A stretch of DNA of 32,592 nucleotides from a virus. This document shows, piece after piece, positions 22,556 through 32,592 of the stretch. Position numbers and translations under genes: made by a program. The stretch is taken from positions 1 through 32,592 of the IMG/VR virus record IMGVR_UViG_3300029319_000247. One strand, given 5' to 3'. The first letter of the stretch is position 1; the number at the start of each line of letters is the position of its first letter. The notes beneath the pieces were generated by a model, which had not been told where the DNA came from, ran no database searches, and saw nothing but the letters and a program-made list of their open reading frames with translations.

Positions 22556-23158
22556 CTACTTCTTAGCTGACGCAGGTATACCCTGAGTCGGGGCAATTGC
22601 GTCGTTAAGCATATCTAGAACCTTCATCAGACCTTCTGGTGGGCCATCGTCACGAGCCACTACCTTCACATCATACTTGGCGCTGTTGTCGCTTTTACGG
22701 CTATTCTCGCTGTGGTTAGCCACAGAACCATGAACCGTAACGTCACAACTAAACAACCCGGCGTTGTACTTAGCGTGTGCTGTAAGTTCTGCCTTGGTAT
22801 CAGATGTGGTCTTAGCCGAAGTAGACGACTTTACTTCCATCGTAAAGCGGACCTCGGCTTCTTTTACAGACAAACTTGGTGTGTTGATGATGGCAAGCAA
22901 AGGAACCTGTAGGTCTACCTTCTCCAACGAAGTGGTACCATCAGCACCCTGAACAGGTTTGTTGAAACTAAAATCAACTGTGCGGGCAGACATGTTTCCG
23001 TTTGTGTCTGCATTCAGTCCTACGTCTTTGATGAAGTCACTTGAGGCTTTGGCCAACAGCGTTTGCGCTGAACAAGCAGCCTTGAGAGGACCACCAATAA
23101 GCTGGTCCATGGGGAGACCACCAAACTGGTCTGACATCTTTACGAGTTGATCTGGCAC
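22556..23158 (-). CDS. DUF2589-family protein (200 aa)
   Basis: GTG at 23158 is chosen because AGGGAG, overlapping the previous stop, is correctly spaced; ATG at 23137 has a weaker site. The sequence follows the DUF2589 pattern closely: 'LPMDQLIGGPLKAACSAQTLLAKASSDFI', 'RTVDFSFNKP', 'KVDLQVPLLAIINTPSLSV', 'VRFTMEVKSS', 'VHGSVANHSENSRKSDNSAKYDVKV', and 'DDGPPEGLMKVLDMLNDAI'. The family's function is not known; in bacteria such genes often occur as a pair. Here it sits with its partner (23168-23659) inside the phage structural region, and may be a virion or membrane-associated accessory protein. Confidence 0.88.
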   Translation of the reverse strand: MPDQLVKMSDQFGGLPMDQLIGGPLKAACSAQTLLAKASSDFIKDVGLNADTNGNMSARTVDFSFNKPVQGADGTTSLEKVDLQVPLLAIINTPSLSVKEAEVRFTMEVKSSTSAKTTSDTKAELTAHAKYNAGLFSCDVTVHGSVANHSENSRKSDNSAKYDVKVVARDDGPPEGLMKVLDMLNDAIAPTQGIPASAKK

Positions 23159-25402: not shown

Positions 25403-25470
25403 GGATTGGGGTTATCTCACCCTTTGGCGGGGCGGATTGGTGGATTGGGTGGATTGGTTTGGCGGATTGG
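25403..25470 (+). repeat. Five copies of GGATTGG
   Basis: GGATTGG begins at 25403, 25434, 25442, 25451 and 25464, mostly as GG[CT]GGATTGG, next to several TTCGGTGG units. The strand bias is extreme: G-rich on the plus strand. Could be a binding array, a strand-specific priming site, or low-complexity sequence. Confidence 0.75.
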
Positions 25471-25907: not shown

Positions 25908-26002
25908 CCATATTAACAGCGATTAAACACTCACCGAACAGCCCGCCGACCTTGCCAACTATTGCTGCCGCCAGTAGAAAAGGGGGCTTCTTGGATGAGT
26001 TG

Positions 26003-26045
26003 ATATTGTTTATACTTTGTTTTTAATATTTAGAATAAACAATAT
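26003..26045. repeat. AT-rich inverted repeat ATATTGTTTAT / ATAAACAATAT
   Basis: Perfect 11-bp arms (26003-26013, 26035-26045) around a 21-nt AT-rich spacer. AT-rich inverted repeats in phage non-coding regions are often origin or regulator sites. Confidence 0.65.
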
Positions 26046-26060
26046 AAACACATCTTGTTA

Positions 26061-26102
26061 CGGTCACCACGCCGTTTGTCCGTGTAAACACGGCCATGAC
26101 CG
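26061..26102. repeat. Nested hairpin with CCGTGT-AA-ACACGG
   Basis: An outer CGGTCA/TGACCG pair (26061-26066, 26097-26102) encloses a perfect CCGTGT-AA-ACACGG palindrome (26080-26093). The inner GTGTAAACAC differs by one base from the GTGTAACCAC repeats found at 27686-27949. Confidence 0.55.
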
Positions 26103-26135
26103 AGATAGCTTATTAGTTTTTCTTTTTGTTTATTA

Positions 26136-26164
26136 TTAAAAGGAAAAAGCCTAAACACTATCAT
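26136..26164 (+). promoter_or_regulatory. Candidate promoter for the structured RNA
   Basis: TTAAAA (26136-26141) and TATCAT (26159-26164) are separated by 17 bp, resembling a sigma70 promoter with a weak -35. Predicted start is near 26171, just ahead of the long-stem structure at 26188. Confidence 0.4.
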
Positions 26165-26170
26165 AGCGGA

Positions 26171-26370
26171 CCCCTTTTCGGAACGGTGTAGCTTAGATTT
26201 TGACCGCGACTAAATCCTCGCGGATTTACCGAGGCCGCAGGCGCAGGAATCAGCCCTGATCGGGCTGATACTTTTGCTTCATACTCAAAATCTAATCTAC
26301 TACTACAAATGCCCCGCCACATGGAAACATCTCCAGATTCCCCTCGGGATGAAATCAGGAGATATTTTTT
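26171..26370 (+). ncRNA. Candidate structured RNA or leader with terminator-like 3' hairpin
   Basis: A long stem closes the structure: 26188-26203 pairs with 26285-26300 at 15 of 16 positions, including a perfect TTAGATTTTGA / TCAAAATCTAA. Inside are two perfect hairpins, TAAATCC-TCGC-GGATTTA (26211-26228) and ATCAGCCC-TGATC-GGGCTGAT (26249-26269), so the fold looks like a three-way junction. Downstream, ATCTCC.GATT pairs with AATC.GGAGAT (26329-26363), followed by ATTTTTT, like an intrinsic terminator. The same 3' arm also holds a GGAG ribosome site for the ATG at 26371. It may be a free RNA or a cis-acting leader. No known riboswitch class is recognised. Confidence 0.5.
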
Positions 26371-26430
26371 ATGTACCAACTCCATGTAGCAAATGCAGAT
26401 GTGGCTCGGACTTATGAAATGTTTCCTCTT

Positions 26431-26459
26431 TTCACTTCGGGTGAACATGGTGTTCATCC
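26431..26459 (+). promoter_or_regulatory. Two mutually exclusive leader hairpins
   Basis: TTCAC-TTCGG-GTGAA (26431-26445) and a GGGTGAACA / TGTTCATCC stem (26439-26459, one G-U) share the GTGAA segment, so only one can form. They lie 30 nt before the preferred start at 26491. A switch is possible but unproven. Confidence 0.35.
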
Positions 26460-26490
26460 ACTAACTACATCATTCTATAAAAAGGAAAGT

Positions 26491-27414
26491 ATGATGACTA
26501 CTGTAACTGAAATCAAAATCCCACGTAGCACTAAAGAGATCACCGGACTGTCGACAGCAAAGCTGAAGAAACTCGTTGCTCATCTTGGTAACCTCATCGA
26601 AGGACAACTGGCTGTCATCGAGAGACATTACGGCTCTCATGAGAAAGGCGCTGGTGCAAACTGCGAGGTGCGTGCTCACGTCGGCCAGTTGTTCCAAGGC
26701 AGCAACGTGACGTATGGCACAAAGACATACATCCCGAAAGATTCCAACGAATCCAAGTCCGTTGGCCGTGATTTCCTGGTGTGGATGTGGGACCGTAACA
26801 TCCTGGCTCCGAAACCTGCGGGAACAGGTTCCTTCGGTGGCAAAGCCAGCATCCAGGAACTCACTATCAACAGTAAGCCGACCTGGCTTCACTGCTTCTT
26901 CTCCGAAGCGCAGTTCATGAAAGCGCTGGAGCGAGTTGCAACCGGTTGGGAAGACCGCATCATCGAGAGTCTTCCTGCTCGGAAGCTAACCGAGCCAACG
27001 TGGCGCGAGGTTGCTGAAGGCCACCTCACCGTCTGGTTGTGGCTTCAGCACGTCACCGACATCAGCTTCTTTGCGTATGGTGGCTACTCGAAGAACGGGT
27101 GGTGGTCACCAGGTTACGACGAAGACAACCTGGAAGCTTATGGCAACGTACCTGCACCTGGAGAGTTTAGCTGGAAGCAGCGCTTCGATGCAGGCCGACG
27201 TGGTCCATACCGTCAGCCAACGGTACGTAAGGACAGTGTTCGAGCAGACGGTGACTACTCGGAACCTGGCCTCCACAACCCAGGCACCGGGACGTATGAC
27301 GCTCCCGAGAACTCTCACGATACCTTCGAGAATCGTGATGCCGACCGTGACGAGCGCAACGCACTTATGCGTGCTGTGAACAAGAACAATCGTCAGTTGG
27401 GCAACTTCCGTTAG
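26491..27414 (+). CDS. Isolated, probably highly expressed protein of unknown function (307 aa)
   Basis: ATG at 26491 (or 26494) follows AAAAGGAAAGT, a good ribosome site. The frame is open back to ATG at 26371, adding 40 residues, but that start lies within or behind a hairpin. The N-terminal part is helical (STKEITGLSTAKLKKLVAHLGNLIEGQLAVIERHYGSHEKGAG). The middle is aromatic (GRDFLVWMWDRNIL; HLTVWLWLQHVTDISFFAYGGYSKNGWWSPGY). The last 90 residues are Arg/Asp/Asn-rich and probably disordered. Codon choice and higher GC differ from neighbouring genes and suggest strong expression. It stands alone between two non-coding regions and ends at a strong terminator. No family recognised; a replication or regulatory role would only be guesswork from position. 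Confidence 0.85.
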   Translation: MMTTVTEIKIPRSTKEITGLSTAKLKKLVAHLGNLIEGQLAVIERHYGSHEKGAGANCEVRAHVGQLFQGSNVTYGTKTYIPKDSNESKSVGRDFLVWMWDRNILAPKPAGTGSFGGKASIQELTINSKPTWLHCFFSEAQFMKALERVATGWEDRIIESLPARKLTEPTWREVAEGHLTVWLWLQHVTDISFFAYGGYSKNGWWSPGYDEDNLEAYGNVPAPGEFSWKQRFDAGRRGPYRQPTVRKDSVRADGDYSEPGLHNPGTGTYDAPENSHDTFENRDADRDERNALMRAVNKNNRQLGNFR

Positions 27415-27438
27415 TCACTGTAGGTGAGTAATCACCAC

Positions 27439-27471
27439 GCCTCGGGCCGCTGCGCGGCTCGGGGCTTTTTT
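27439..27471 (+). terminator. Strong intrinsic terminator
   Basis: A 12-bp GC-rich stem (27439-27450 with 27454-27465, including G-U pairs, 3-nt loop) is followed by six T. It ends transcription of the 26491 gene. A small extra hairpin GGTGA-GTAA-TCACC (27423-27436) precedes it. Confidence 0.92.
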
Positions 27472-27628
27472 CTAATCCGTAAAAAGGAATGTCTTCGACA
27501 TGCTTTTATTCCACCCTCACATAAATGTGTGCTCGCTTCGCTCGCACGCTTTTATTCCATTGGTCGATACTTCCATTCTTGGTGGTGGGCACGAAGGGTG
27601 GGAACCTGTTGGTACGCAACCGGCGACT

Positions 27629-27668
27629 TTTATATTCTACACCAACTTTTTATTTATATTCTACACCA
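27629..27668 (+). repeat. Direct repeat TTTATATTCTACACCA (two copies)
   Basis: Exact 16-bp copies at 27629-27644 and 27653-27668, offset by 24 bp, directly before the GTGTAACCAC cluster. Confidence 0.9.
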
Positions 27669-27685
27669 GTTACACAGTTACCCAA

Positions 27686-27949
27686 GTGTAACCACAAGTG
27701 GGTAACACGATAACCAAGGTTTAAATATATATATCAATAAGTGTAACCACTGTTACCACATAAAAGAGGACATGCTTACTTAGCTGACTAAGTTCTTTTA
27801 CTCTTTTGTTTTGAGTATATAAAGACCCTATTACGAAGTACTCACGTAGATATATCTATACTGTGTAAGATGTGGTTACGTGGTTACACCTTCATAGTCC
27901 AGGTTGTAAGTACCTTATCTCGTTACCACCTGCATCTTGGTGGTTACAC
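27686..27949. repeat. Iteron-like GTGTAACCAC repeats in both orientations
   Basis: Perfect copies: plus strand at 27686-27695 and 27741-27750; inverted (GTGGTTACAC) at 27880-27889 and 27940-27949. A near copy, GTGGTTACGT, is at 27872-27881. Related GTTACC motifs occur at 27677, 27752 and 27922, and GTTACCC/GGGTAAC form an inverted repeat (27677-27683, 27700-27706). Two forward copies left and two inverted copies right of an AT-rich middle give a symmetric layout. Confidence 0.85.
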
Positions 27950-27985
27950 CAACATCACACACTACCCGTAGTGTCCAAGGAAACT

Positions 27986-28150
27986 ATGCTTCATGTCTAC
28001 TTTAAAGACGGATCAGTCGAAACACATAAAGTGAGTCTTGATACCTGGATCGAAAAAGAAGAAATGTGCATTTGGTTGATCTACTCTGCCGACCAAATCG
28101 AAAAAATCAAGTACCACTATTATGTAATCACAAAAGACTTGATGGTCTAA
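27986..28150 (+). CDS. Small unknown protein (54 aa)
   Basis: ATG at 27986 is set by CAAGGAAACT directly upstream; the frame extends farther back but only through the repeat region. The product, MLHVYFKDGSVETHKVSLDTWIEKEEMCIWLIYSADQIEKIKYHYYVITKDLMV, reads like a compact alpha/beta domain of early phage proteins. It is the first gene of the right-hand train, immediately after the iteron-like cluster, so it would be regulated by it. Function unknown. Confidence 0.7.
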   Translation: MLHVYFKDGSVETHKVSLDTWIEKEEMCIWLIYSADQIEKIKYHYYVITKDLMV

Positions 28151-28334
28151 GAATGTGTCGTGCGTCAAAGCATCAAAGCGACACACGTTGTATGTCCAAC
28201 TGCAACCATCAAGCCAGGTAATCTGTGCCTGACCCAACACAGACGAGCAACGACGGTCACCCGGCACCCTCACGGCGTTGTAGAAACTATAGGGGGTGCC
28301 AACATCTCATAGCTTTAGAAGTAAAGGACAAGTC
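28151..28334 (+). promoter_or_regulatory. Hairpin-rich leader between small early genes
   Basis: 184 nt without a gene. TGTGTCG/CGACACA (28154-28160, 28179-28185) and GGCACCC/GGGTGCC (28263-28269, 28294-28300) form two possible stems. No T-run follows, so these are more likely leader or processing structures than terminators. No clear promoter is seen. Confidence 0.35.
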
Positions 28335-28997
28335 ATGCCATCCGACGAAACCAAACCTGATACCGAGCCTCCGATACCGTTTGATAGTGTACTCAACACA
28401 ATCATACATCGGTGCGAACGCAATCAAATCAAAATGTATGACGAACTCATGCCCCGTGTTGAAGCAATGTATAAAGAACTCAACATCAAGTTGACGGATA
28501 TGTACACTCCAGTTCTCGAAGCTTGCCGCAACATGCGTGACAACCGAAATAAAGTCGTCGCCCAAGCCGTTGAACAGTCCCTTAAGTATCAACTCACAAA
28601 GATCATCGAGCACTTAGAAGATATTAACTTCGACCCCGATGATCTACGTGAACATCTTGTTGTGCATGTATGGACCCCTGATTTTGAAACACATTATCCG
28701 TACTGCGACACCAAATTGGGTGGATACCAACGTCTCAAAATGTCTATCTCCGTAAGCTTCCCTGCCGTTGCTCAAGACAAACACACAGGCAAAATCATTG
28801 CACTCACAACAACCGAGTACGAAGATCTAATCCTGTCTTACACGCCACTGCACGAGGAAGAAAGTACCGTTACTCGGTCTCGCAACTGCATCGACTTCGT
28901 GTTCGACTACGTCTACGACAACCTGACCATCGAACCTGACTCCACGTATTGCGAGTACCCCAGCTTTCCTACACGCCCAGTGCGTAAAACCACATAA
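28335..28997 (+). CDS. Unknown early-type protein (220 aa)
   Basis: ATG at 28335 is preceded by TAAAGGACAAG; the earlier in-frame ATG at 28296 has no good ribosome site. The protein has a helical first half (INxxIHRCERNQIKMYDELMPRVEAMYKELNIKLTDMYTPVLEACRNMRDNRNKVVAQAVEQSLKYQLTKIIEHLEDI). The second half is beta-rich with acidic and aromatic residues (DDLREHLVVHVWTPDFETHYPYCDTKLGGYQRLKMSISVSFPAVAQDK). No enzyme motif or membrane segment is visible. It is the largest gene of the right-hand train. Family not recognised. Confidence 0.83.
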   Translation: MPSDETKPDTEPPIPFDSVLNTIIHRCERNQIKMYDELMPRVEAMYKELNIKLTDMYTPVLEACRNMRDNRNKVVAQAVEQSLKYQLTKIIEHLEDINFDPDDLREHLVVHVWTPDFETHYPYCDTKLGGYQRLKMSISVSFPAVAQDKHTGKIIALTTTEYEDLILSYTPLHEEESTVTRSRNCIDFVFDYVYDNLTIEPDSTYCEYPSFPTRPVRKTT

Positions 28998-29016
28998 CCT
29001 AAGAGGTTCCAAAATC

Positions 29017-29526
29017 ATGCCGACCACAACTCCAAATGGAATCGTCCTTGCTCACGATGACCATGACCTACAACCAGAACACTTAGACTTCATTGACGAA
29101 GTGTTAGCCGACTGGGACGGCTCGTTCCTGCTCAAAGTATTCCCACTTCCCGACACATGCGCCAGCCTTCCTTCCGCATTGTACGGTCCAAGTGTAGGTG
29201 ATGAACCAATCAAGGAAGACCAGGTCACCTACAAAAAACGCAACAAACGTCGCGGCCCTTCTCGATTAATCGACGCACCCACACGTCCCGCTCGCAACAT
29301 AGCACTGATTGGTATGCGGGTAACCTCCGGTGAACTAATGTTGTTTACCGCGTACGGTACCCAGGCTGAACACCCAAGCCCACGCGAATGGTGGGACATA
29401 CCACAAATCGATCTTACCAAACTACCCCCAGCCGAGGCCCGCGCACTACTTTTCAAATGGTCATCCGACGGTGTAGCTGCTTGCCACTTCTGGAGTCAAC
29501 ACGCACTTGTAAAAGGTGCCGCATGA
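29017..29526 (+). CDS. Unknown protein (169 aa)
   Basis: ATG at 29017 lies 19 nt beyond the previous stop; AAGAGG upstream is a ribosome site with long spacing. The protein starts MPTTTPNGIVLAHDDHDLQPEHLDFIDEVLADWDGSFLLKVFPLP and includes 'YKKRNKRRGPSRLIDAPTRPARNIALIGMRVTSGELMLFTAYGT' and 'REWWDIPQIDLTKLPPAEARALLFKWSSDGVAACHFWSQHAL'. It looks like a folded alpha/beta protein with a basic middle loop. I do not recognise the family. It overlaps the next gene by 4 nt. Confidence 0.82.
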   Translation: MPTTTPNGIVLAHDDHDLQPEHLDFIDEVLADWDGSFLLKVFPLPDTCASLPSALYGPSVGDEPIKEDQVTYKKRNKRRGPSRLIDAPTRPARNIALIGMRVTSGELMLFTAYGTQAEHPSPREWWDIPQIDLTKLPPAEARALLFKWSSDGVAACHFWSQHALVKGAA

Positions 29527-29705
29527 TGTGGCAACCCACCCTCGAAAGCGCTGAACGTTTCCATCGTAAATTGCGTACCGCCGATACTGCCGATGAAATC
29601 GCTTATGAAAACGCAATCATTCGCATAACCGCTCAACGTAAAGCCAAGCGTAACGAAACACTTCTTGCCATCCTCGACCATGGCTACCTGCGAGGTAACA
29701 AATGA
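29523..29705 (+). CDS. Small helical protein (60 aa)
   Basis: ATG at 29523 overlaps the previous stop (ATGATGA); AAGGTG lies upstream. The product (MMWQPTLESAERFHRKLRTADTADEIAYENAIIRITAQRKAKRNETLLAILDHGYLRGNK) is basic and helical. It may bind nucleic acid or a host protein. No family recognised. The gene ends in an ATGA overlap with the next small gene, showing tight translational coupling. Confidence 0.75.
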   Translation: MMWQPTLESAERFHRKLRTADTADEIAYENAIIRITAQRKAKRNETLLAILDHGYLRGNK

Positions 29706-29851
29706 CCGACCTGGAACAAACGCTATTGAAAGCGTTGAAGGAAATCCTCGCGGAAGCCACTCGCCCCACCGACCCAGTGCTCAAGTGCGGGGTCATCAAG
29801 TGGGCAGCAATCGAGGCAATCGAAGAAGCTGAATCCACGGAAGGTAAGTAA
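29702..29851 (+). CDS. Small protein (49 aa)
   Basis: ATG at 29702 overlaps the preceding stop by 4 nt. The translation MTDLEQTLLKALKEILAEATRP...DPVLKCGVIKWAAIEAIEEAESTEGK is a Leu/Ala/Glu-rich helical protein. Its last codons (GAA GGT AAG) are also the ribosome site of the next gene, which overlaps by one base (TAATG). Continuous coupling on both sides supports it as a real gene despite its length. Function unknown. Confidence 0.7.
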   Translation: MTDLEQTLLKALKEILAEATRPTDPVLKCGVIKWAAIEAIEEAESTEGK

Positions 29852-30120
29852 TGTGGATGATTAGACATATAGAAACAGAGAGCAGAGCGCACCTTGACGA
29901 CTTCGATGATACGGGAATATCTTTTCTGTACTGGTCGAATGAGCACGGATGGTCATCGCGTGATGATGCCGACGTATGGCCGACCGACATGAAGCCTATC
30001 GTTGGCCTACCGTTCGGTGGTGAATGGGTACGCACCGATCAAATCGATCAAGCCATATGCGTACACTGTGACGAATCACACCATGTAGATGCTGACCATG
30101 AATGCAGCGGAGGTATGTGA
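29851..30120 (+). CDS. Small Cys/His-containing acidic protein (89 aa)
   Basis: ATG at 29851 shares its first base with the previous stop. The protein is Asp/Trp-rich (DDFDDTGISFLYWSNEHGWSSRDDADVWPTDMKPIVGLPFGGEWVRTD) and ends with a possible metal knuckle: C70-x2-C73, H77/H78 and C85 (CVHCDESHHVDADHEC). The last three codons GGA GGT ATG form the ribosome site of the next gene. It may be a small zinc-binding regulator; the family is unknown. Confidence 0.78.
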   Translation: MWMIRHIETESRAHLDDFDDTGISFLYWSNEHGWSSRDDADVWPTDMKPIVGLPFGGEWVRTDQIDQAICVHCDESHHVDADHECSGGM

Positions 30121-30437
30121 TGCCCTACGCCTACGTGCAACCCGAGGAAGCTTTTGAGATTAATGTTTCTGGAGATACCGTGTCCGTTTATCATTGCTAT
30201 AAAAGCCACAACTTTCCAGATCCGTTGACATTCTGGTATACACTGGATATTAACGAAAGTGAGGATAACGAGTTTGATATTCGTATGGTTCCAAACTTTC
30301 CGATGGAACACAATCCCAACAAACCAAGGTATGGAATGTCTGTTGAAGATCATGCAGTCATACTACAGGCTGCGATCAACAAAGGACTGGTCAGTGTTGA
30401 CGGTTGTACCATTGACATCATGGAGGATAACAACTGA
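30120..30437 (+). CDS. Small unknown protein (105 aa)
   Basis: ATG at 30120 overlaps the previous stop (TGATG) with GGAGG just upstream; the in-frame ATG at 30102 is rejected. The product (MPYAYVQPEEAFEINVSGDTVSVYHCYKSHNFPDPLTFWYTLDINESEDNEFDIR...) seems a beta-sandwich-like or alpha/beta fold with a helical patch 'SVEDHAVILQAAINKGLV'. No motif is recognised. One-base overlap with the following gene indicates coupled translation. Confidence 0.8.
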   Translation: MPYAYVQPEEAFEINVSGDTVSVYHCYKSHNFPDPLTFWYTLDINESEDNEFDIRMVPNFPMEHNPNKPRYGMSVEDHAVILQAAINKGLVSVDGCTIDIMEDNN

Positions 30438-30739
30438 TGCCCTTACCCGTTGTCGTGCAGTTTGAGCGTGAGGTAACCGACGATGTGACTGGTGAAGTCA
30501 CAGGGTACGTGTTGATCACAGTAGAAGGAGAGTATTGCGAAGGTGACGCCAGTGTGGGCGAGGGTGAGCACCTTCATGCTGAGTTGTCGTACATGCATGA
30601 TGACGAGACAAAGACGCCCATTGAGATCACAGACTGGGAAGAGGATCAACTTCTTTCAATATACAAGAGTGATCTTGAGTATGAACGTGGTTGGGAGATG
30701 GACCACAAAACCAAAGAATACAAACAGAGAGGTGAATGA
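30437..30739 (+). CDS. Small acidic beta-rich protein (100 aa)
   Basis: ATG at 30437 overlaps the previous stop by one base (TGATG). The protein is acidic and beta-prone (MPLPVVVQFEREVTDDVTGEVTGYVLITVEGEYCEGDASVGEGEHLHAELSYMHDDETKTPIEITDWEEDQLLSIYKSDLEYERGWE). The end (QRGE) is encoded by the next gene's ribosome site. Family not recognised. Acidic small phage proteins often bind host enzymes or mimic DNA, but that is speculation here. Confidence 0.8.
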   Translation: MPLPVVVQFEREVTDDVTGEVTGYVLITVEGEYCEGDASVGEGEHLHAELSYMHDDETKTPIEITDWEEDQLLSIYKSDLEYERGWEMDHKTKEYKQRGE

Positions 30740-31227
30740 TGAGTAGATGGCAAGGACCAGAGCACGCCTATGCACAAGCTCGACGGCTACATGAACAACG
30801 TGAAGAGTATGAACATGAAGTCTGGAAGGAAAACAATCCAGAGTGTGAAAAATGCGGTGAGCGTGAGCCAAGAGAAACAATGACCGAAGTATGTGGAGAT
30901 CGTTGGTGTACGCACTGTGTCGATGACCATGCCTTCCAGTGTGAGGTATGCGGTGGGTTCTTTCCTGACGACGATCTTGCAGACGTTAATCTGACGTTGG
31001 CTGAGTACGTATGCACCGACTGTGATGAGAAGTGTGCTGCTGAAAAGACACGCCATCATGCACCAGTAGAGATACCCATTGGTCACCTGGAATACGTGAT
31101 GTGGGTGATGGGTAACGCTGCGAAAGACGATCCATATGAAGGCACACAACCCGGTAACGCAAAGAAGTGGTTGAAGGAAAGCATCGACCTGATGAAACAA
31201 TCAATGCCCAAAGAAGGAGGTGAGTGA
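30739..31227 (+). CDS. Multi-zinc-knuckle protein (162 aa)
   Basis: ATG at 30739 makes the standard TGATG junction (ATG at 30736 is also possible). After a charged helix the protein has repeated Cys pairs: C36-x2-C39, C52, C57-x2-C60, C68-x2-C71 and C92-x2-C95 plus C99 (CEKCG, CTHC, CEVCGG, CTDCDEKC), enough for two zinc sites of treble-clef or ribbon type. The C-terminal third is helical (GHLEYVMWVMGNAAKDDP...KWLKESIDLMKQSM). Such a layout fits nucleic-acid or protein-binding regulators. No specific family is recognised. Confidence 0.82.
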   Translation: MSRWQGPEHAYAQARRLHEQREEYEHEVWKENNPECEKCGEREPRETMTEVCGDRWCTHCVDDHAFQCEVCGGFFPDDDLADVNLTLAEYVCTDCDEKCAAEKTRHHAPVEIPIGHLEYVMWVMGNAAKDDPYEGTQPGNAKKWLKESIDLMKQSMPKEGGE

Positions 31228-31403
31228 TGGAGAATAACGCAGAGAATCGGGAGAGGGTTGCGCTTGCCGTTTGGGACACACTCAGCACAAGAGATCTGTA
31301 CGAGATGTTCATAAACCAAGCTGTTGGTCAGTATGAAATGGACCCAACCAAGTTCAAAGAAGATGCGGAAGAGATGGGCTTTACCGACGAAGAGGGAGAG
31401 TAA
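31227..31403 (+). CDS. Small acidic protein (58 aa)
   Basis: ATG at 31227 overlaps the previous stop (TGATG) behind AAGGAGGTGAG, a near-perfect ribosome site. The product MENNAENRERVALAVWDTLSTRDLYEMFINQAVGQYEMDPTKFKEDAEEMGFTDEEGE is an acidic helical protein of the kind seen in phage early regions. The following gene begins one base after its stop. Function unknown. Confidence 0.78.
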   Translation: MENNAENRERVALAVWDTLSTRDLYEMFINQAVGQYEMDPTKFKEDAEEMGFTDEEGE

Positions 31404-31404
31404 A

Positions 31405-31761
31405 ATGATTATTTTCGTGTTAGACGATGGCGAGACATACACACTGGCAGATCCGGTTGAGGTCGCGGTCACACCAGAGCAACTGACCCGTATTGAATCT
31501 GGTGAGAAGGTTTACCAGGTTGTACCGGACTGGGCCGAGCAGAGCGAGAAACCTGGACCCTTGTGCAACTGTATCCAATGCACGCGCAAGCGGTGGCCCT
31601 ATCAATCAAAGACAGACGCGCCCGCGCCCGAGCACACGCCCGAAGAAGATGCAGAGGACTTCTTTGTGCAAGCCGGGATCGCTGCCGCAGAGGCATTGAA
31701 AGAGATGAAGAGAGACTACACCAAGAGCATCGTGGATGCTCAGAACAAAGGAGGTAAGTGA
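31405..31761 (+). CDS. Small protein with a CxCxxC cluster (118 aa)
   Basis: ATG at 31405 is preceded by GAGGGAGAGTAAA; the longer reading from 31324 has no such site. The first 50 residues are a compact beta-rich domain (MIIFVLDDGETYTLADPVEVAVTPEQLTRIESGEKVYQVVPDW). Then comes 'CNCIQCTRKRWPY' (C-x-C-x2-C), which could bind metal, and an acidic linker and helix (AEDFFVQAGIAAAEALKEMKRDY) with a KGGK end encoded by the next ribosome site. Not recognised as a known family. Confidence 0.8.
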   Translation: MIIFVLDDGETYTLADPVEVAVTPEQLTRIESGEKVYQVVPDWAEQSEKPGPLCNCIQCTRKRWPYQSKTDAPAPEHTPEEDAEDFFVQAGIAAAEALKEMKRDYTKSIVDAQNKGGK

Positions 31762-31976
31762 TGATGAGTAGATACGAGAAAGATTTGAACGAACGAGAAG
31801 AGGCCAACCAACGGTTCGCTTTGGGTAACGATGGCTACCGCTTGTTCAAGGCAGCGCCAGAGTTGTTGGAAGTGATGGAGGATATTCTGAAGTACCAGGT
31901 CAGGAACGATTGGATGGACCTTCCGATTTGGGTTCGCGCTAAGAACGCAGTTGCCAAAGCCAAAGGAGGTGAGTGA
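31761..31976 (+). CDS. Small 'KAAPELLE'-type protein (71 aa)
   Basis: ATG at 31761 (or 31764) overlaps the previous stop behind AAAGGAGGTAAG. The sequence 'GYRLFKAAPELLEVMEDIL' is a motif I recognise from many small phage proteins with an 'AAPELLEAL' helix; their function is unknown. The rest (RNDWMDLPIWVRAKNAVAKAKGGE) is helical, and the KGGE end is formed by the next gene's ribosome site. Confidence 0.8.
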   Translation: MMSRYEKDLNEREEANQRFALGNDGYRLFKAAPELLEVMEDILKYQVRNDWMDLPIWVRAKNAVAKAKGGE

Positions 31977-32176
31977 TGAGTGAAATGGACAACATAAACA
32001 TTGACCCAAGATACGTGAAAGAGTTGTGGCATGCGCTGTTTGCGGTGACACATGCTGTGGAACACTTCGGTCATCAAGAACAAATCAACAGCCTATTCAA
32101 CGATGAGACAAACTTAGGTGCCTATGACTATGCGCGCATGGTTCTAAGAGATTCAGTTGTAAAGAACGAAGAGTAG
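31976..32176 (+). CDS. Small helical protein (66 aa)
   Basis: ATG at 31976 overlaps the previous stop (TGATG) with AAAGGAGGTGAG upstream. The product (MSEMDNINIDPRYVKELWHALFAVTHAVEHFGHQEQINSLFNDETNLGAYDYARMVLRDSVVKNEE) is helical with several His and aromatic residues. No known motif. It is the last gene of this coupled set before a promoter-like gap. Confidence 0.78.
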   Translation: MSEMDNINIDPRYVKELWHALFAVTHAVEHFGHQEQINSLFNDETNLGAYDYARMVLRDSVVKNEE

Positions 32177-32186
32177 CAAAACACCG

Positions 32187-32215
32187 TTGACCTATTATCG
32201 TTCATAGATTAGGCT
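32187..32215 (+). promoter_or_regulatory. Candidate sigma70-type promoter
   Basis: TTGACC (32187-32192) and TAGGCT (32210-32215) are separated by 17 bp in the only sizeable gap of the right-hand train. The -35 box is good (5/6) and the -10 box is weak (3/6). It would start a transcript just before the gene at 32242. Confidence 0.45.
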
Positions 32216-32241
32216 ACAACACACCATACACAGAGGATTAA

Positions 32242-32436
32242 ATGGTTGATATGTGGGAAGATTTTTTAGAGTATGTCCAACACAAAGGCATACCGATGTC
32301 GGACGGCGACTGGTGCTCGGAGGCACTTGCGTTTTCCGGTGGTAATACAGACGTTGCTTGTGTCTTGCTGGACATGGTCAAGAAGAGCCAAGCGATTCAA
32401 AAGGTGGTGATGACCACCAAACCTGCGGAGGCATGA
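32242..32436 (+). CDS. Small unknown protein (64 aa)
   Basis: ATG at 32242 follows AGAGGATTAA. The product (MVDMWEDFLEYVQHKGIPMSDGDWCSEALAFSGGNTDVACVLLDMVKKSQAIQKVVMTTKPAEA) has a helical start, a short Gly/Cys-containing middle and a helical end. It follows a possible promoter and overlaps the next gene by 4 nt. Family not recognised. Confidence 0.75.
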   Translation: MVDMWEDFLEYVQHKGIPMSDGDWCSEALAFSGGNTDVACVLLDMVKKSQAIQKVVMTTKPAEA

Positions 32437-32592
32437 TGGACCTAAGCGATGAACGATTCCACACTCGAACGATCCGATGGTCGAAGTTGATTCGTGACGG
32501 TATCGACCCCAAGGTTGTGCTGGTGGAAGCGCAACGCCAGGGTATGTACAGGCTCGCACGAAGCGCCAATGAGCGCATACGCAAAGACAATG
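32433..32592 (+). CDS. Partial gene at right edge, unknown
   Basis: ATG at 32433 (second ATG at 32436) overlaps the previous stop; GCGGAGGC upstream serves as ribosome site. The visible 53 residues (MMDLSDERFHTRTIRWSKLIRDGIDPKVVLVEAQRQGMYRLARSANERIRKDN) are basic and helical and the frame is still open at the window edge. Function unknown. Confidence 0.7.
   Translation, partial: MMDLSDERFHTRTIRWSKLIRDGIDPKVVLVEAQRQGMYRLARSANERIRKDN

Follow-up and report, generated by a model that had tools for sequence, protein, structure and literature searches.

A mirrored iteron cluster as a putative replication origin in an uncultured phage and in its DUF927 helicase-encoding relatives

Organization of the iteron cluster

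The DNA examined here (the window) is the whole of IMG/VR record IMGVR_UViG_3300029319_000247, 32,592 bases of viral sequence. It is a fragment, with terminal repeats absent, and carries genes for a major head protein, a terminase and a portal protein. The element in question is a cluster of short repeated sites (iterons) that a preliminary description had placed at positions 27629-27949 and taken for a replication origin or a regulatory switch. The features at and around this cluster are as follows.

26491..27414, + strand: upstream neighbour gene of unknown family; ATG at 26491, open reading frame (ORF) open from 26371; positional homologue in six relatives with the GTGTAACCAC element
27439..27465, + strand: hairpin with T run resembling an intrinsic terminator, separating the element from the upstream gene
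27629..27668, no strand: left flank, rich in T and A and holding two 16-bp direct repeats (27629 and 27653); a similar pair in relatives G003 and G032
27669..27706, no strand: block A, outer iterons on the left; GTWAC cores at -72, -64, -53 and -39 from block B
27741..27761, + strand: block B, forward tandem iteron pair, GTGTAACCAC + TGTTACCAC
27762..27870, no strand: spacer, about 68% A+T, proposed melting site; sequence variable, length about 110 bp in both main groups of relatives
27872..27889, - strand: block C, reverse tandem iteron pair, mirroring block B
27920..27950, no strand: block D, outer iterons on the right, in convergent orientation (27921 forward, 27940 reverse)
27959..27974, no strand: inverted repeat ACACTACCCGTAGTGT, just 5' of the next gene; GTGTAACCAC group only
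28335..28997, + strand: first conserved downstream gene, at the head of a series of small genes oriented rightward; homologue 3' of the element in G003

The coordinates given earlier for four exact copies of GTGTAACCAC, two forward (27686 and 27741) and two inverted (27880 and 27940), were confirmed, and no other exact copy exists in the record. When one mismatch is allowed, the window contains seven matches against 2.08 expected, a number that none of 100 shuffles attained. Further GTWACC cores lie within 27669-27706 and at 27752, 27872 and 27921; the additional GTTACC-type motifs and the two 16-bp direct repeats of the preliminary description are likewise present. Altogether, GTWACC or GGTWAC occurs nine times in 362 bp (matched in 0 of 5000 dinucleotide shuffles), the maximum in any other stretch of the window being four. 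The element, some 300 bp in all, thus reads as a tandem pair, a spacer of about 110 bp with a higher A+T content and an inverted tandem pair. Both the mirror order and the tandem pairing (27741/27751 and 27872/27880) had been overlooked.

A one-base variant of the site does exist at 26082-26091, on the other side of the 26491 gene, although it lies in an inverted repeat, CCGTGT-AA-ACACGG, which is not a perfect palindrome. The proposal that one protein binds on both sides of this gene is not borne out, five relatives having no such site 5' of their 26491 homologue.

Repeat words and layout in related phages

A DNA similarity search with positions 26000-32592 against 50,697 phage records gave no match, and neither the portal protein nor, in a search for close relatives, the 26491 protein retrieved any. 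Relatives, on contigs of up to 73 kb, were reached through the terminase and portal proteins. Exact GTGTAACCAC was found in 4 of the 31 relative records searched: as an inverted pair separated by 196-199 bp in G003, G005 and G007, and as a single copy within an ORF in G018. In both G003 and G005 the exact word is confined to the element (two of two sites each), so that the motif is not frequent elsewhere, nor is the element missing from related phages, the two outcomes that had been named as arguing against its significance. The G003 pair is flanked by homologues of the 26491 and 28335 genes, whose products are only 25-28% identical to those of the window; the position of the element has therefore been kept. 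A search with the pattern of the right end matched six viral contigs, three of them new. Alignment of the seven GTGTAACCAC elements, window included, revealed a variable spacer flanked by conserved blocks. A short ORF at 27986, one of the candidate binding proteins put forward earlier, proved to be an insertion found in the window and missing from the other six elements.

A scan for any repeated word detected GTAACAC in nine to ten copies in G018, G010, G013, G019 and G023. The GTGTAACAC group comprises seven viral contigs recovered by a search for mirrored tandem patterns, G011 and G042 having been added. Measured from block B, the left GTWAC cores lie in both groups at about -73, -64/-63, -53, -39, +2 and +10/11, and the right ones at +128 to +134, +136 to +142, +177 to +181 and +199 to +202; positions agree within a few bases between the GTGTAACCAC and GTGTAACAC groups. 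Block C of G005 and G033 is a single core at +131. The same plan is built from GTGTAACA in G031. Eight more distant records were scanned (G036 and G037 only around the pattern match), and six have an array: mirrored tandem pairs of other words in G036, G037, G038 and G041, and mirrored single sites, a looser arrangement, in G028 and G035. The scan found no array in G039 and G040 (contigs of 37-40 kb). Among 16 relatives read for the cluster, nine have it; the other seven are pieces of 7.6-14.4 kb that may end before the expected place. Throughout the relatives, blocks B and C are spaced about 102-132 bp start to start, and in 13 of 13 cases the A+T content of the spacer exceeds that of its own locus. 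The gene that follows the element varies; the layout is constant.

Clusters of GCCGGAC were considered as a version of the element in two relatives and then dropped, the GTGTAACA array of G031, which has the correct layout, lying about 1 kb away. These clusters, with 8-12 copies of GCCGGA(C), are a feature of several distant relatives (L124 11627-11722; L126 8663-9191, a reverse-oriented copy; near L198 3400 and L202 5430); in G031, G028 and G035 they lie at a distance of about 1 kb from the element.

DUF927 helicases and the proposed origin

A DUF927 gene is present in 11 of 32 records. In the long relatives its product has about 700 residues and bears an HTH_56 ("Cch helix turn helix") domain, which was found in 20 of 21 DUF927 proteins. 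Profile comparison matched the helicase to the Rep protein of the Staphylococcus aureus pathogenicity island (SaPI) SaPIbov1 (8tch, residues 76-561; E 2e-71) and to Cch of the staphylococcal cassette chromosome (SCC) element SCCmec (5dgk; E 5e-40). The same two proteins were the best solved matches in Foldseek, run against "pdb" only, for an AlphaFold2 model of the G003 helicase (pLDDT, the model's confidence score, 83.8); next came chains of a pCW3 relaxosome accessory protein, some of them DNA-bound, at E 0.0015-0.003. The relatives' protein thus matches the SaPIbov1-Rep/Cch family in sequence and in predicted fold, across both the ATPase and the C-terminal domains. Genes for a family-A DNA polymerase and an SNF2-type helicase lie near the helicase gene in G003; the polymerase (L136 1860-4637) has an N-terminal domain resembling uracil-DNA glycosylase. 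The element is on the 3' side of the helicase gene, at 11.7 kb in G003, whose contig ends overlap by about 98 bases, and at 8.3 kb in G005 if the map is circular. By coordinates, the distance is about 3 kb in G036 and about 5 kb in G028 and G037.

Arrays of this kind also adjoin DUF927 genes elsewhere. In four isolated phages chosen among 24 DUF927 records (THSA-485A, FP_Epona, Jekyll and AC844P2), all with helicases sharing only 24-29% identity with the G003 protein, an iteron array immediately follows the gene in every case. The site order in THSA-485A, > > > < > > [spacer] < < > <, is that of the GTGTAACAC group. Epona deviates solely in the outer left sites, the central mirrored part is present in Jekyll, and AC844P2 has six single sites with tandem pairs absent. 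Among bacterial DUF927 loci (best 80 of 217, of which 76 had sufficient flank), 22 of 76 carry exact mirrored tandem 6-mers in the 600 bp that follow the gene, with spacings of 86-132 bp, as opposed to 1 of 1333 control windows and none of 228 shuffles; at least six copies of one 6-mer are found at 62 of 76 loci versus 46 of 1818 controls. At 64 loci, iteron similarity tracks the helicase C-terminus when the ATPase domain is controlled for (partial r 0.315, 0 of 2000 permutations; -0.141 for the reverse).

Comparison of these sequences lends good support to the earlier suggestion of a replication origin. We consider it very probable that the phage starts its replication in the element at about 27669-27950, bound by a DUF927 helicase in the form of two opposed hexamers that would start two forks. 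The window's own phage presumably carries such a helicase, as judged from its relatives. This MCM-like (minichromosome maintenance-like) protein of the SaPIbov1-Rep/Cch type would use its C-terminal winged-helix domain to bind the iterons. Because the tandem pairs B and C point toward each other over the spacer of about 110 bp, two hexamers might be loaded in opposite orientations; they would then melt the spacer and start the forks, and the DNA would be copied by a family-A DNA polymerase of the phage itself.

Several observations weigh against this interpretation. No DUF927 gene is present in the window record, a fragment that extends only 4.6 kb on the side on which G003 has its helicase gene, 11.7 kb beyond the element. 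Unlike in SaPIs, no iterons were detected directly behind the helicase gene of the phage family at any of 28 evaluable loci (31 tried): any 6-mer reaches at most 3-4 copies per 450 bp there, and the best counts up to 3 kb further are 3-7. The GC skew of the window, G003 and G005 does not turn at the element, so that the cumulative skew check recommended in the preliminary description yielded no origin signal. The correlation between iterons and C-terminus is confounded at bacterial loci, where the end of the gene encoding the C-terminus is next to the array; for 15 genomes of the phage family, in which helicase and array are apart, the test gives r 0.157 (137 of 2000 permutations). Finally, the 400-bp cluster count in G003 is a tie, eight GGTTAC against eight GGTTGA, the latter forming a second, equal word cluster.

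Alternative readings and relation to known replicons

The position of the element, which has a terminator-like hairpin on one side and the start of the rightward gene series on the other, preceded in the GTGTAACCAC group by an inverted repeat, would also suit a multi-site operator or promoter at which a phage regulator switches the genes just downstream. Such a function can coexist with an origin. As an explanation in its own right, it appears improbable: the single sigma-70-like site falls below the number obtained from shuffles (1 against 1.7 expected, in itself an uninformative count), the downstream gene changes from one relative to the next under a constant layout, and an identical layout is found behind distantly related DUF927 genes that have other genes downstream. 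Alternatively, the origin might be recognized by a different phage protein, for instance the product of the neighbouring 26491 gene, with the DUF927 helicase merely recruited. Members of the 26491 family do lie beside the element in all seven GTGTAACCAC phages, and they diverge fast (19-25% identity between the window's protein and the relatives' versions). The product, however, has no recognizable DNA-binding domain and no Pfam or PHROG match, and its model, at pLDDT 41, was uninformative and not used; a tblastn search with the window's 26491 protein found no homologue beside GTGTAACAC elements, a weak result in that the query missed most of its own group too. The HTH_56 helicase, in contrast, spans the entire phage family. 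Recognition by such a protein is thus very unlikely, and the DUF927 helicase, which the fragment does not encode, seems a likelier binder than the candidates proposed at the outset.

Partition centromeres and packaging sites can contain clustered inverted and direct repeats. A parS-like or packaging role for the element nonetheless appears very unlikely, although no search aimed at ParB was made, as the terminase gene is 15.6 kb away in the window (about 11-17 kb in relatives) and association with a DUF927 gene would be expected of neither kind of site. The notion of a structured RNA was abandoned: the region folds with z -2.6 in the window, but opposed sites by themselves yield paired arms. 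The central spacer hairpin is strong in the GTGTAACAC group (z -3.0 to -5.6, five of five), where its covariation does not rise above shuffles (173 of 500), and weak in the GTGTAACCAC group (z -0.3 to -2.5), so that the hairpin may or may not have a role. A search of Rfam returned a tRNA as its sole match in the window and nothing credible near the element.

Other features were noted nearby. A cloverleaf-like three-arm fold at 28138-28215, with outer stem CTTGATGGT/ACCATCAAG and no Rfam family, is nearly identical in G003 and G007; in G007 one outer pair shows matching changes on its two sides, and in G032 one arm is missing. A hairpin, GGCACCC/GGGGGTGCC, at 28259-28320, directly 5' of the 28335 gene, is kept in G003 and G032. 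GGATTGG occurs five times at 25403-25470, beside the 25141 gene, and AATCCGCC four times at a comparable position in G007. The gene at 22556-23158 encodes a DUF2589 protein (Pfam E 4e-43).

In iteron-plasmid origins of the RepA/TrfA type, a single direct-repeat array stands beside DnaA boxes and an A+T-rich region and is served by a plasmid-type Rep; the element described here has mirrored pairs instead of one direct array. Closer parallels are found among SaPIs and phage-inducible chromosomal islands (PICIs). SaPI Rep recognizes its origin through the C-terminal domain (PMC7581432), PICI origins have an AT-rich region between two iteron sets (PMC6092414), and opposed repeats in SaPI origins are the likely guide for two head-to-head, self-loading hexamers (PMC9894130). 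Since Rep recognition, iteron layout and hexamer mechanism all fit the element, bar its place and its carrier, it is SaPI/PICI-like in its presumed working, yet not a PICI. What is shared would be an A+T-rich region between opposed iteron sets and an initiator of the SaPIbov1 Rep family with a predicted C-terminal DNA-binding domain, found in the relatives and not in the window fragment. The differences are that these phages encode their own head, portal and terminase proteins as well as a family-A polymerase, not being virion-less satellite islands, and that the SaPI origin lies directly 3' of rep, as opposed to 3-12 kb off in five relatives.

SCCmec Cch (5dgk, profile E 5e-40) belongs to the same helicase family and likewise ends in an HTH_56 domain. 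According to PMC7581432, SCC elements had no identified origin prior to that work, which concerns Cch2, of another helicase family. THSA-485A, FP_Epona, Jekyll and AC844P2 share the iteron arrays, in THSA-485A in the order of the GTGTAACAC group, but their arrays adjoin the helicase gene and their helicases are only distantly related to that of G003. The SV40 origin with large T antigen, where opposed repeats likewise go with two head-to-head hexamers, as PMC9894130 has it for SaPI origins, offers an analogy only.

No description of DUF927 helicase/iteron origins of this kind in phages was found in the titles, abstract openings and passages covered of the open-licence literature. It seems reasonably probable that DUF927 replicons as different as satellite islands, temperate phages and the present family of 65-76 kb phages follow a common origin grammar, > > > < > > [about 110 bp] < < > <, in which the word is exchanged while the initiators are as little as about 24% identical; the window's group would then represent autonomous phages in which two MCM-like rings are loaded head to head at an origin set apart from the initiator gene. 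One plan is seen in uncultured phages, in isolated phages and downstream of many bacterial DUF927 genes, and the initiator-origin pairs with different words that it offers would make head-to-head loading and iteron specificity directly testable.
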